A DNA stretch of 64,000 nt from Pseudomonadota bacterium (GTDB taxonomy: Bacteria; Pseudomonadota; Gammaproteobacteria; Steroidobacterales; JBCBZW01). Shown piece by piece: positions 47,280 through 51,988 of this stretch. How positions within the stretch are numbered: the stretch's first letter is position 1; every line of letters begins with the position of its first letter. A program made the translations under genes and the position numbers. The DNA lies in assembly GCA_039815145.1 (NCBI GenBank), contig JBCBZW010000005.1, positions 1 to 64,000 on the forward strand, read 5' to 3'. The notes under the pieces are model-generated. The model was not told where the DNA came from. It searched no databases and worked only from the letters and a program-made list of their open reading frames with translations.

Positions 47280-48182
47280 ATGAGCGCAACGGTCATCGAC
47301 GGCAAGGCATTCGCCGCCAAAATTCGCGGTGAGGTGGCGACGGAAGTGCGCAAGCTTTCGGAGCAGCACCAGCTGCAACCCGGGTTGGCCGTCGTGCTCG
47401 TCGGCGAGAATCCCGCGAGCCAGGTGTACGTGGCCAACAAGGCCAAGCAGACGGTAGAGGTGGGCATGCACTCCATCGAACACCGCCTCGATGCCAGCGT
47501 GTCCGCCGACGAGCTCCTCGCCCTCGTGCATCAGCTCAACAACGATCCGCAGGTCAACGGCATTCTGGTGCAGCTCCCCCTGCCCGATCACATCAACTCC
47601 GATGACGTGCTCAACGCCATCGACCCGGCCAAAGACGTCGACGGCTTTCACGTGGTGAACGTGGGTCGCTTGTCCACCGGCATGCAATCCCTCGTGCCCT
47701 GCACGCCCCTCGGCTGCCTGTTGATGTTGCGTGATCATCTAGGGGACATGTCTGGTGCCAACGCGGTGATCGTCGGTCGGTCGAATATCGTGGGCAAGCC
47801 GATGGCGCAGCTGCTGCTAAGCGCCAACGCCACGGTGACCGTCGCCCATTCGCGCACCCGTGACATCGCCGACGTTTGTCGTTCGGCGGATATTCTGGTC
47901 GCCGCCGTGGGCCGCCCCGAGATGGTACAGGGCGAATGGGTGAAGCCCGGCGCGACGGTAATCGATGTCGGTATCAACCGCGTGCCCGCACCGGAACGCG
48001 GCGAGGGCAAGACCAAGCTCGTCGGTGACGTCGACTACGCTGCCGCGGCGCAGGTGGCAGGCGCCATCACGCCGGTGCCTGGCGGCGTGGGACCGATGAC
48101 CATCGCGTGCTTGCTCGCCAATACCGTCACGGCGACCTGCCTGGCGAACGGATTGGAACCGCCCGCCCACCTGACTGCCTAG
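47280..48182 (+). CDS. folD: Methylenetetrahydrofolate dehydrogenase / cyclohydrolase
   Basis: Bifunctional enzyme interconverting methylene-, methenyl- and formyl-tetrahydrofolate. 300 residues, slightly longer than E. coli FolD (288). Active-site lysine in [23 protein letters not shown] and [10 protein letters not shown] signatures; NADP motif [13 protein letters not shown]-terminal [23 protein letters not shown] precedes the ATG. The last two bases of its TAG stop are the first bases of the inverted-repeat element described next. Confidence 0.96.
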
Positions 48183-48341
48183 TGTCGTGTCCCGCAAGTT
48201 CGTCGAAGCATTCGCGGGTACTTTTGGCCCCTAGGCACGTTGCTCCTCCTCCCGTGGGGCCTGCCACGCTCGTCGTCGCGCCGCGCCTAGGAACAAAAAG
48301 CCCCGTGCGACTGCTTCGACGAACTTACGCACCACGACACT
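48181..48341. mobile_element. MITE-like inverted-repeat element abutting the folD stop codon
   Basis: 161 bases bounded by 30-base terminal inverted repeats (48181-48210 and 48312-48341) that match at 26 of 30 positions, both ending AGTGTCGTG outward. Complementarity continues inward (for example GGCCCCTAGGC near 48226 with GCGCCTAGGAAC near 48288), so the whole element can fold into one long hairpin. It contains no plausible gene. There is no clear target duplication: CTAG is on the left but not on the right. A related short copy lies at 53085-53133. Confidence 0.7.
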
Positions 48342-48351
48342 CGGCCCAGGC

Positions 48352-48375
48352 TTGCAAACCGACCGGTCGGTCTGT
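48352..48375. promoter_or_regulatory. TetR operator and promoter of the tetR-family gene
   Basis: The perfect 14-base palindrome ACCGACCGGTCGGT (48358-48371) lies between a -35-like TTGCAA (48352-48357) and a -10-like TAGACT (48375-48380) with a 17-base spacer. Bound repressor would block the promoter, which implies autorepression. The same extended sequence recurs, inverted, at 49061-49086. Confidence 0.8.
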
Positions 48376-48405
48376 AGACTTTCGCCCATCCTGAAGGAAG
48401 TCACC

Positions 48406-49014
48406 ATGAGCGACCGCCCCCAACAAGCTGAGCACACTCGCGAGCGCATCCTCGAGGGCGCAGCGCAAGAGATGTACCGCGTGGGCTACCAAGCGGCCTC
48501 CACGGCCAACATCTTAAAGCGCCTCAGCATCTCCAAGGGGGCGCTCTACCACCACTTTCCGAGCAAGCAGGCGCTCGGCTACGCGGTGCTCGATGAGTAC
48601 CTTGCGGAACGCCACGCCCGCTGCTGGGACGACGTGAGCCAGACCCCCGACCCCCTTGGCGCAGTCATCGATCAGCTTGCCGAGCAGTGCGAGTCAGCGT
48701 GCGCGGAGCAAATGCGTCACGGCTGCCCAATCAATAACTTGGCGCAGGAAATGTCGCCACTCGATGAAGGTTTTCGAGAGCGAGTCAGCGCCATCTACAG
48801 GCACTGGCAGCAGGCTTTAGAGAACGCCTTCGAGCGGGCCCAGACCCTTGGCACCATGGATCCGTCGACGGACGCTAAAGGCCTGGCCACGTTGATCGTG
48901 GCCACCACCCAGGGAGCCGTCGGCCTGGTGAAGAACGCGATGGACGAGTCGCTGTTTCGCCAAGCGATCACCGCGCTGCTGGTGCACCTTCGCGCCCAGC
49001 GCATCCAACACTAG
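48406..49014 (+). CDS. TetR-family transcriptional regulator
   Basis: 202 residues from the ATG at 48406 with GAAGGAAG upstream; the frame opening at 48352 lies in the operator and is not used. The N-terminal helix-turn-helix is typical: TRERILEGAAQEMYRVGYQAAS, ILKRLSISKGALYHHFPSKQALGYAV. The C-terminal ligand domain resembles the LmrA/YxaF-type group, with HGCPINNLAQEMSPLDEGFR. Operators flank the gene on both sides, so it probably represses itself and the small membrane-protein gene downstream. The ligand is unknown. Confidence 0.93.
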   Translation: MSDRPQQAEHTRERILEGAAQEMYRVGYQAASTANILKRLSISKGALYHHFPSKQALGYAVLDEYLAERHARCWDDVSQTPDPLGAVIDQLAEQCESACAEQMRHGCPINNLAQEMSPLDEGFRERVSAIYRHWQQALENAFERAQTLGTMDPSTDAKGLATLIVATTQGAVGLVKNAMDESLFRQAITALLVHLRAQRIQH

Positions 49015-49060
49015 CCAGCTACCCGTAACTGTCCCTGTCACCTTGTAACTGGACTCCCGA

Positions 49061-49086
49061 AACAGACCGACCCGTCGGTATGCAAG
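49061..49086. promoter_or_regulatory. Second TetR operator, upstream of the 36-residue membrane protein
   Basis: The core ACCGACCCGTCGGT (49066-49079) has flanks that match the first operator in reverse orientation: TTGCA-ACCGAC and GTCGGTCTGT are shared, about 21 of 24 positions. It lies 17 bases before the 36-codon ORF. Confidence 0.75.
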
Positions 49087-49096
49087 CGAGAAGACG

Positions 49097-49207
49097 ATGA
49101 CACCCAAAACCTCCCTGCGTCGCTTTGACAAGCTGTTCTCCATCGCGCTGCTGCTCGTCGGGCTCTACGCGCTCGCCCAGGCCGGGATTCGCCTCGCGTC
49201 GACCTGA
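49097..49207 (+). CDS. 36-residue single-pass membrane protein under TetR control
   Basis: ATG at 49097, TGA at 49205-49207. A basic N-terminus (MTPKTSLRRFDK) is followed by one hydrophobic segment (LFSIALLLVGLYALAQAG, about 13-30) and a short tail IRLAST, predicted to be one inner-membrane helix with the N-terminus inside. GAGAAG lies just upstream of the start. The second TetR operator directly precedes it. No homologue is recognised. The operator and membrane-peptide composition support a real gene, though it is short. The remaining 130 bases to the next gene show nothing else. Confidence 0.6.
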   Translation: MTPKTSLRRFDKLFSIALLLVGLYALAQAGIRLAST

Positions 49208-49339
49208 ACCGCCGGGCTTATGACGCACCCGAGCTAAAGCTCACAGGAGAACTGCCGACCCAAAAATAGACATGACGCCAACCGCCCGGTACCAGACCCT
49301 CCGGCCGCGCGGCGTGGCAGCCGCCGCAACGAGGATCCC

Positions 49340-51988
49340 GTGAAGCTCTCACCGCCTCCCCAAGGACCGGGCTCGATCCAACGCCCACCGTCAGCCTCCC
49401 TCGATTCGCTCAAGGTGCTGGTGGTGGAGGATCTGCGCCCTCAGCAGCAGGTGATCGAGCGGCTGCTAGGCAAGCTCGGCTGCTCAACCACCATCGCTGG
49501 CGACATGCGCCTGGCGCTCGAATACGCGCGCTATCGCCACTTCCACGCCGTGCTCATCGATAGCCTCGTGCCCGACATCGCGGGCGCCAGCAGCGTCGCC
49601 GCGATCCGTCAGGTGAGCGCGGCCCTCGGACGTCCGGTCTACGTGGTCGCCATGTGCGGCACGGCACACTGCCGGCCCCAGGCGGAACAACTCAAGCAGG
49701 CGGCTGATGCGCAGCTGCGAAAGCCCCTGCGCGTGGACGCACTGCACCGTTGCCTCGCGCACCTGACACCGCCCCCAACCGTCGAGGCACGCCCTGGCGG
49801 ACGCGACGCGGTGGTGATGGCGCCCTCGGCGCCCTCGCCCGTGGTCGCTGATACCTCCGCCGATGAACCCCGTCGCCCCTTGCGGGTGGTGCTCGCTCAC
49901 GTGGATGCCTCCGCCTGGAACGATGCGTCGACGGCCCTCGCCAACCAGCTCGGCGATCAAGCGCTCGATCTGCAGTGCGTGATGGTGCGCGAAGAACTCG
50001 AGCATCGCTTGCGCGAGGGGTCGGTCGACGTGCTGCTAGGCGACCATGCGCTCGTGCAGGCGATCCCCGCCGACGCCGCCAAGGAGCTCACCAGTACTCC
50101 CTGGATCGCCCTCGCGGGCGACCTGGCCACGGCCCACGCTGCCATGGCCGCCGGTGCAGCGGACTTCGCCCTGGCCCCATACGCCTGGGACGCCCTCGCC
50201 CTGCGCATTCAACGGCTGCGAGTCGCGCAGGCGCAGTTGGCCGAACTCCACCAATATCGCGACCGACTGTTGATGATGCAACGGGTAGCTCGGGTGGGGG
50301 AATGGGCCCTGGATCCGGCCAGCGGCGAGCTGCGCCTGTCCACCCAGGCACGCCAGCTACTGCGCCTGGGCCAGCGCCAGGACGAGCGTTTCACCCAGCA
50401 GGATCTCCTGCGTCGCATCCATCCGAACGACCGCGAGCGTTGCGCCCGCACCCTGCGCGCCGTGGCGGAGCGCAGCACGGCGATGGAGTGCGAGTTCCAG
50501 CTGGCCACGGGCGATGTCTGGCTGGCCCAACACATCGTGCCTGTGCGTACGGGCGGTGCAGCCGTGCGTCTGCGCGGCACCCTGCAGGACGTCAGCGCCC
50601 GACGCGCCCAGGAGCAGGAGATCCGACGTCTCGCCTACTACGACGACGTGACGGGCCTCCCCAACCGCCGACACTTCCGCGAGCAGCTAGGTCGCGCCCT
50701 CGACCGGGCCACGGTCAACGAGAGCAGCCTGGCCGTGCTGTTCATCGATCTGGACGAATTCAAGCGCATCAACGACACGCTCGGCCACACCTTCGGTGAC
50801 CTGCTGCTACGCCAGGTGGCCGATCGCCTGGCAGCGGTGGTGCGCGAGAGCGATGCCATCGGCCATAGCTCGACGAGCGCCCCGCAGGCGTGCGCTGACG
50901 AGGGCGACCGACTGGACGAAGTGGCCCGCATGGGCGGTGACGAGTTCGTCGTCCTGCTCACCCAACTCCCCGAAGGCCAGGACGCAGCAGGTGTTGCCGC
51001 ACGCATCGTCAACGTGCTCAACCGCCCCATCGTGGTGGACGGTCACGACATGCGAGTCACGCCGAGCATCGGCATCGCTCTCTACCCGCGCGACGGACAG
51101 GACGTCGAGACGCTCCTGCGCTGCGCCGACACGGCGATGTATCACGCGAAGTCGCTGGGCCGAAATCGATTCGAGTTCTTCTCGGAAGAACTCGGCGAAC
51201 GCGCCCTGCGCCGCCTGACGCTCGAAGGCCGCCTACGGGTGGCCCTACGCGCCAACGAGTTCTCCCTCGCCTATCAACCGAAGATCGCCCTGTCGAGCGG
51301 TCGATGCGTGGGCGTGGAGGCGCTCATCCGCTGGGAGCGCGAGGGCAAGACGCAGATGGCTCCTGTCGACTTTCTGCCGGTCGCAGAGAGTTCTGGCCTG
51401 ATCATCGACGGTGAGTGGGTGCTCGCCGAGGTGCTTCGCCAGCTCGATGAGTGGGCCACCACAGGGGTGGACGTACCGCGCGTCACGGTCAACACCAGCG
51501 TTATCCAGTTCAACCGCGGAAAGTTCTGCGAGGTACTCTCCTACGTGAGCGAGCCGAAGGGACTGCTTCAACGGCTCGAGCTGGATCTGACCGAGCACGC
51601 GCTGATGAGCATCAGCGATAGTGCGATCTCCGATCTCGCCGACCTGCGGGCCCGTGGGCTGCGAGTTGCCGTCGACGACTTCGGCACCGGCTACTCGAGC
51701 CTGCAAAACCTGCGGCGCCTGCCCTTGGACGCCCTAAAGGTCGACCGCTCCTTCGTCGACGGCCTGCCCACGCAGACGGGCGATCAGGCGATCGTCAGCG
51801 CCATCATCTCCCTAGGCCAACAGCTCGGACTGGAGGTGGTGGGCGAAGGGGTGGAGACCGAGGCCCAGCGCGAATGGCTCGCGGCCCACGGCTGCGACAC
51901 GATCCAGGGCTTCCTCATCTCCCACCCCGTCAGGGGCGCGGCCATCGCGGAGCTGCTGACCGATCAGCCCCAGGTGCAGGCCAGCTAG
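49340..51988 (+). CDS. REC-pseudoREC-PAS-GGDEF-EAL cyclic-di-GMP protein
   Basis: 882 residues from a GTG at 49340 with GAGG upstream. REC1 (about 24-145) has VVEDLRPQQ, an acceptor Asp in VLIDSLVPD and a late Lys in LRKPLRVD. A second receiver-like fold (about 180-300) lacks the acceptor motif. A PAS domain (about 310-425) follows. The GGDEF domain has GGDEF at 532-536, but about 21 extra residues lie between the RESD inhibitory site (502-505) and the signature. EAL (about 635-875) is complete: EALIRW, NTSVIQF, LDLTEH, VDDFGTGYSSL, LKVDRSF, GEGVET. Both activities are possible, with input from a phosphorelay. No kinase gene lies nearby. Confidence 0.93.
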   Translation: MKLSPPPQGPGSIQRPPSASLDSLKVLVVEDLRPQQQVIERLLGKLGCSTTIAGDMRLALEYARYRHFHAVLIDSLVPDIAGASSVAAIRQVSAALGRPVYVVAMCGTAHCRPQAEQLKQAADAQLRKPLRVDALHRCLAHLTPPPTVEARPGGRDAVVMAPSAPSPVVADTSADEPRRPLRVVLAHVDASAWNDASTALANQLGDQALDLQCVMVREELEHRLREGSVDVLLGDHALVQAIPADAAKELTSTPWIALAGDLATAHAAMAAGAADFALAPYAWDALALRIQRLRVAQAQLAELHQYRDRLLMMQRVARVGEWALDPASGELRLSTQARQLLRLGQRQDERFTQQDLLRRIHPNDRERCARTLRAVAERSTAMECEFQLATGDVWLAQHIVPVRTGGAAVRLRGTLQDVSARRAQEQEIRRLAYYDDVTGLPNRRHFREQLGRALDRATVNESSLAVLFIDLDEFKRINDTLGHTFGDLLLRQVADRLAAVVRESDAIGHSSTSAPQACADEGDRLDEVARMGGDEFVVLLTQLPEGQDAAGVAARIVNVLNRPIVVDGHDMRVTPSIGIALYPRDGQDVETLLRCADTAMYHAKSLGRNRFEFFSEELGERALRRLTLEGRLRVALRANEFSLAYQPKIALSSGRCVGVEALIRWEREGKTQMAPVDFLPVAESSGLIIDGEWVLAEVLRQLDEWATTGVDVPRVTVNTSVIQFNRGKFCEVLSYVSEPKGLLQRLELDLTEHALMSISDSAISDLADLRARGLRVAVDDFGTGYSSLQNLRRLPLDALKVDRSFVDGLPTQTGDQAIVSAIISLGQQLGLEVVGEGVETEAQREWLAAHGCDTIQGFLISHPVRGAAIAELLTDQPQVQAS

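Follow-up and report, generated by a model that had tools for sequence, protein, structure and literature searches.

Within the 64,000-nucleotide stretch of DNA analyzed here (the window), we examined a region that carries a gene for a TetR-type repressor, two matched palindromes, a 36-codon open reading frame (ORF) and a GGDEF-EAL gene. The features are as follows.

48352–48380, forward strand: tetR promoter (TTGCAA-17-TAGACT), which encloses operator 1
48406–49014, forward strand: tetR, encoding a NemR-like protein of 202 amino acids with TetR_N and TetR_C_13 domains (from Pfam, an AF2 model and Foldseek)
49063–49082, forward strand: operator 2, with its core (ACCGACCCGTCGGT) at 49066–49079 and without correctly spaced promoter hexamers
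49097–49207, forward strand: 36-codon ORF, encoding a predicted small membrane protein with a basic N-terminus and a single transmembrane (TM) stretch at about residues 13–31
49208–49339, forward strand: 132-nt stretch between the small ORF and the GGDEF-EAL gene, with 65% identity to the sister species G001
49340–51988, forward strand: response regulator gene with REC, GGDEF and EAL domains (c-di-GMP turnover; Pfam domains), its synteny kept in G001

The tetR promoter consists of a −35 element (TTGCAA, 48352–48357), a 17-nt spacer and a −10 element (TAGACT, 48375–48380). The spacer holds a perfect 14-mer palindrome (ACCGACCGGTCGGT, 48358–48371), exactly as the initial annotation had reported. 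The core of operator 2 differs from this palindrome by one mismatch and lies 17 nt from the ATG of the small ORF at 49097. A 24-mer (TTGCANACCGACSSGTCGGTCTGT) occurs in the window at exactly these two sites, on opposite strands (0 occurrences expected from 100 shuffles), and the two perfect matches to the extended operator (CANACCGACNNGTCGGTNTG) in the 6.0-Mb genome are operators 1 and 2. The next best genomic site has two mismatches, and at two or three mismatches the number of genomic sites does not exceed that of a control pattern. A candidate third operator at contig position 83214 was rejected; it consists of two overlapping one-mismatch matches within a large ORF and does not match the extended pattern. 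Throughout the TetR clade as a whole, the operator is a longer palindrome with CA/TG ends, which is why its extended copy appears inverted. The position and match of the second copy, as initially annotated, thus stand, while its inversion reflects the operator's own symmetry.

Position and conservation suggest that both palindromes are TetR operators. In Burkholderia cenocepacia, the same 14-mer is proven as the TetR-type operator of PaaR; it lies there between the −35 and −10 elements and is needed for negative control (PMC2770484). The PaaR site is identical to the window 14-mer and occupies the same promoter interval, but PaaR targets phenylacetate catabolic genes. Directly upstream of the tetR promoter, between folD and tetR, we also observed an inverted-repeat, MITE-like element of ~165 bp (48180–48348, TAGTGTCGTG...CACGACACT). 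This element is not present at the equivalent site in G001, and ~28 full or partial copies with 71–95% identity are found elsewhere in the genome.

The 36-codon ORF encodes MTPKTSLRRFDKLFSIALLLVGLYALAQAGIRLAST, which has one hydrophobic stretch (KD19 2.08) behind a basic N-terminus, in line with the initial description. No comparable TM ORF arose in 3000 dinucleotide shuffles of the region downstream of operator 2. We compared the locus with G001, the sole other genome of the same genus in the set compared, so that the within-genus comparison amounts to one species pair. The gene order folD-tetR-ORF-GGDEF/EAL-usp is identical in both genomes. Both operators are identical at 14 of 14 positions, including the odd base of operator 2, and operator 1 occupies the same place within the G001 tetR promoter (TTGCCA-17-TATAGT). 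The tetR gene is 81% identical and the small ORF 78% identical, against 36% for the tetR leader, 37% for the spacer between tetR and operator 2, and 36–50% for adjoining non-coding DNA.

Start, length, stop and TM stretch of the small ORF are all kept in G001. Substitutions by codon position number 8/3/13, a third-position excess, and include ten synonymous codon changes. The resulting rates (NG86), which answer the check on synonymous versus nonsynonymous change proposed in the initial annotation, are dN 0.15 and dS 0.70. For the ORF as a whole dN/dS is 0.21, and counted from codon 8 it is 0.11, compared with 0.08 for tetR. When the same changes are placed at random, 2% of draws yield as few amino acid changes and 40% introduce a stop. 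For this one species pair, codon-level comparison indicates that the ORF is under purifying selection. Because the frame is kept and constrained at the codon level, it is very likely translated, although a single species pair is a thin basis for this conclusion. The case in which the ORF is lost while tetR and operator 2 are kept was not seen within the genus, as represented by G001.

Neither Pfam nor NCBIfam gave an above-cutoff match for the ORF product. Its Shine-Dalgarno sequence is weak in the window and absent in G001. Clear matches to the peptide among 396 genomes of the order are confined to the two congeners; weaker matches fall mostly inside long open frames and were taken as chance. 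We also considered a truncated MMPL/RND N-terminus as the origin of the ORF and set it aside; the likeness is in TM composition only. The sequence comparisons place the ORF among constrained coding ORFs of at most ~50 amino acids with one TM stretch and a predicted membrane location.

The TetR protein matches TetR_N (Pfam accession PF00440, 52.8 bits against a gathering threshold of 24) and PF16925 (62.1 against 27). Its AF2 model is all-helical and two-domain (pLDDT 93), and the nearest solved structures found by Foldseek are 3qbm (TM-score 0.80), 3dpj, 3bru and NemR 4yze (E 3e-6). We compared ~120 related loci. Three residues are nearly or fully invariant among the relatives: C107 (123/123), E115 (123/123) and K176 (121/123). 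C107 and K176 align with C106 and K175 of Escherichia coli NemR, the pair reported to form the bond that allows NemR to sense hypochlorous acid (PMC7464077).

The window TetR resembles NemR, the repressor of the E. coli nemRA-gloA system that senses bleach and electrophiles, in its all-helical TetR fold, its aligned Cys-Lys pair and its placement beside a target. It differs in sharing only 21% identity with NemR and in its apparent target, a small membrane protein here as opposed to the enzymes NemA and GloA. We liken it to NemR in its probable working and do not assign it as a NemR-type member. Judging by the conserved NemR-type Cys/Lys pair, the likely inducers are oxidants or reactive electrophiles, and a redox or electrophile signal is our best guess by analogy. 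The Cys-Lys match may alternatively be mere fold conservation.

Two other repressors offer partial parallels. The best NCBIfam match is AcuR of the Rhodobacter sphaeroides acuR-acuI-dddL operon (NF051457, E 2e-26), with a score of 92.4 bits that falls below the curated equivalog cutoff of 247. AcuR is an autoregulated TetR protein that heads its own operon and whose operator overlaps the promoter (PMC3017554); its operator (TAATAGAC-n6-GTCTATTA) differs from those of the window, and its targets are enzymes. RcrR, a hypochlorous acid-sensing TetR-type repressor of uropathogenic E. coli, is encoded between its targets rcrA and rcrB (the rcrARB genes), whose biochemical functions are not established (PMC9600549). 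It uses Cys54/Cys95 and disulfides rather than a Cys-Lys pair, and the described system has one upstream operator and no small single-TM ORF.

In a maximum-likelihood tree, the window TetR groups with those of G001, G016, L077, G760, G761 and G762; this clade comprises four lineages and has an SH-aLRT support of 93, obtained by a quick method. In all seven members, a single-TM small ORF adjoins tetR in the position of a target gene. The initial annotation had proposed a search of related genomes for the operator pair with a short hydrophobic ORF, and the layout indeed recurs within this clade, with other single-TM proteins. Six of the 7 clade members have a small single-TM ORF no farther than 60 nt behind an operator, compared with 1 of the 116 other loci (Fisher 1e-8), or 4 of 4 lineages versus 1 of 116 (6e-7); these P values are descriptive, as the pattern was noticed before counting, and per-locus shuffles and the G761/G762 homology described below are cleaner evidence. 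Such ORFs appear in 0–0.3% of shuffled draws per locus. The lone clear case outside the clade is G400, with a small TM ORF upstream of a LolA-like gene.

The small proteins of the clade vary. G762 encodes three in tandem (77, 67 and 44 amino acids), G760 encodes two (115 and 44 amino acids), and G761 encodes one that is homologous to G762 ORF1, with no operator found upstream of it. In these three genomes a convergent gene comes next, which leaves the small ORFs as the sole candidates that run in the direction of tetR. L077 has a 40-amino-acid ORF upstream of tetR, behind two operators. In G016 a small ORF (MRTTSKLGGLGMLVIATMSMWFVANASNQTDPFSNDPISISVTR) lies 13 nt downstream of an operator and upstream of an SDR gene; its weaker TM stretch (KD19 1.54) is under the cutoff of the shuffle test. 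Most small ORFs of the clade have a good Shine-Dalgarno sequence. Homology is clear between G761 and G762 ORF1 (z 37), where the changes show a third-position excess (23/21/40). A common origin of the whole set of small proteins was considered and found little support, as those of different lineages have little sequence in common: pairwise scores are weak except for G761/G762 ORF1, G760/G762 ORF2 and G000/G001, and the score between the G001 protein and G762 ORF3 (z 4.0) possibly reflects TM composition. G760 ORF2 and G762 ORF3 occupy matching positions, with a dN/dS of ~0.9 near saturation, and are too diverged for this ratio to be used.

Promoter operators in all these genomes are flanked by TTGnnn-17/18-TAnnnT elements, and the operators directly before small ORFs lack promoter hexamers (window, G001, G016, L077, G762 and G760). 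At operator 2, we found no TTGnnn/TAnnnT pair on either strand in the window, G001, G016, G762 or G760; a reversed reading in the window (TTGCAT-17-TTTCGG) was dismissed as a promoter by eye. The promoter-operator lies ~95 bp upstream of the second operator in L077 and G016, and tetR lies between the operators in the window and in G760–762.

In the wider group, the same operator precedes tetR in most of the relatives inspected, and a second one follows tetR directly in many. Next after this second site, or after the stop codon of tetR, comes a gene for an MMPL/RND exporter in many lineages and otherwise one for MlaC, a dienelactone hydrolase (DLH), an SDR or an old yellow enzyme (OYE, assigned by reading of the sequence). 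It is thus ordinary, across the loci compared, for operators to flank tetR, with the second serving enzymes or exporters, and what sets the window apart is the unusual small-protein target; the pairing itself, which the initial annotation had singled out, is not distinctive. The presence of FMN reductase, OYE, SDR and DLH genes beside relatives of this TetR fits a role in electrophile detoxification. The reductase is that of G016 (L045), where an NADPH-FMN reductase gene (506–1135) is divergent from tetR and an operator (1208) lies in the shared promoter (TTGTAT-17-TATAAT); this gene is likely a further target of this TetR type. In Colwellia and relatives (L099, L104, L115, L122 and L126), one to three operators directly precede an MlaC-type gene (phospholipid trafficking). 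These MlaC-type targets suggest that the signal may include damage to membrane lipids.

We propose that the locus is a self-regulated TetR unit dedicated to making a tiny protein of the inner membrane. Taken with the steps set out here (double lock, redox release and a modulator role), this sequence-based reading seems to us fairly probable. The repressor would silence its own promoter, the only one of the unit, through operator 1. Operator 2 lies in no recognizable promoter, which points to transcription from the tetR promoter and a second, downstream lock: a roadblock or loop at operator 2 would bar read-through into the small ORF. Basal repressor would then be made with almost no peptide. 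We infer this double lock from the absence of a promoter at operator 2. Oxidants or electrophiles would modify C107, paired with K176 as in NemR, and release the repressor from both sites. The derepressed peptide would enter the inner membrane with its N-terminus inside, an orientation predicted from the positive residues that precede the TM stretch. There it would most likely modulate a membrane process, for example an RND/MMPL-type pump, and read-through may also raise the level of the downstream GGDEF-EAL protein.

A modulator role is favored because relatives of this TetR precede RND-type exporters and because small proteins of the same size modulate transporters. Small membrane modulators of ~30–55 amino acids bind transporters, and AcrZ and WatS1 act on RND pumps (PMC10710835). 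The window protein is of similar size, but such modulators are not described as controlled from paired operators by a neighboring TetR. The genome search turned up no other operator-bearing gene and hence no candidate partner pump, which counts against this role.

The main alternative to a modulator is a depolarizing peptide of the TisB/DinQ kind, which would act by itself: once derepressed, it would lower the membrane potential and slow growth under stress, with the double operator guarding against toxicity. DinQ is a depolarizing peptide of the inner membrane (PMC3567139), and the window product resembles it in size, single TM stretch and repressor control; the placement of operator 2 away from a promoter would also suit tight silencing. 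TisB and DinQ differ in being SOS-controlled and paired with an antisense RNA, without a TetR, and an Rfam search of both strands found no antisense RNA or structured leader here. As the related proteins of 40–115 amino acids, up to three in tandem and with soluble tails, are unlike a single pore peptide, we regard this alternative as unlikely. A chance frame, with operator 2 only aiding autoregulation of tetR, is very improbable. The weak or missing Shine-Dalgarno sequence and the lack of a family match would fit it, against which stand the rarity of such ORFs in shuffled sequence, the conservation with synonymous excess in G001 and the recurrence of small TM ORFs across the clade.

Operator 2 might instead serve mainly the GGDEF-EAL gene, with the 36-codon ORF as a leader or first cistron, so that a chemical signal would be coupled to c-di-GMP turnover through a transcript from near operator 2 or through read-through from tetR. 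The gene is on the same strand, and no terminator-like site was found in the 132-nt gap. Its synteny with tetR and the small ORF is kept in G001, the gap contains a conserved block, and E. coli offers a precedent in the read-through from nemRA to gloA (PMC3739934). Co-transcription of the GGDEF-EAL gene with the small ORF may thus occur in the window genus. As the main purpose of operator 2, however, regulation of this gene is rather unlikely. The small ORF is itself under amino acid constraint, and in G016, G760–762, L077 and G400 a small TM ORF follows the operator or tetR without a GGDEF-EAL gene in the unit, amid differing neighbors; in G760–762 nothing co-directional follows the small ORFs. 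By gene order, the GGDEF-EAL gene is outside the recurrent module of tetR and small ORF. The initial view of the tiny membrane protein as the only adjacent target does not strictly hold, as this same-strand gene is also a candidate.

The central claim of the initial annotation, that of a tetR with matched operators and a genuine tiny membrane protein behind the second one, finds strong support in the conservation in G001, the codon constraint and the recurrence in the clade. Returning to the preferred reading of a dedicated small membrane protein, a stress or signalling function of the unit is plausible, and from its sequence features the locus appears to be a genuine stress-response unit, one that seems not to have been described. 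In the open literature, together with a few subscription papers, we found no report of a lone small membrane protein under the control of a TetR. A broader reading is that a recurrent, undescribed stress unit exists in Gammaproteobacteria, in which a NemR-like redox TetR double-locks one or more small single-TM proteins that diverge fast or are replaced while repressor and layout persist; for us the case for and against this reading is evenly balanced.

TetR repressors are usually read as switches for pumps or enzymes, and one branch here appears to target small single-TM proteins. If so, these would form an additional class of small proteins, likely missed in annotation for want of a Pfam or NCBIfam family, and the repressor and operator would provide a handle for inducing these proteins and learning their function. 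From the conserved Cys-Lys pair, the class of inducer can be predicted. Further members could be sought by a simple rule: a short TM ORF no more than ~50 nt behind an operator of this type.

Two minor observations concern conserved DNA in and near the small ORFs. Downstream of the window ORF, a block at 49223–49249 (GCTAAAGCTCACAGGAGAACTGCCGAC) is ~90% identical in G001, while the adjoining DNA after the ORF has diverged. The block contains AGGAGA, includes no ORF common to the window and G001 and has no Rfam match; searches of the leader and gap on both strands for a riboswitch or other RNA likewise gave no Rfam match worth noting. In G760, G761 and G762, the coding sequence of the first small ORF contains an operator-like 14-mer, ACCAACCAGTCGGT or a close variant, which encodes PTSR (L230 3532, reverse strand; L231 3505, reverse strand; L232 3850).
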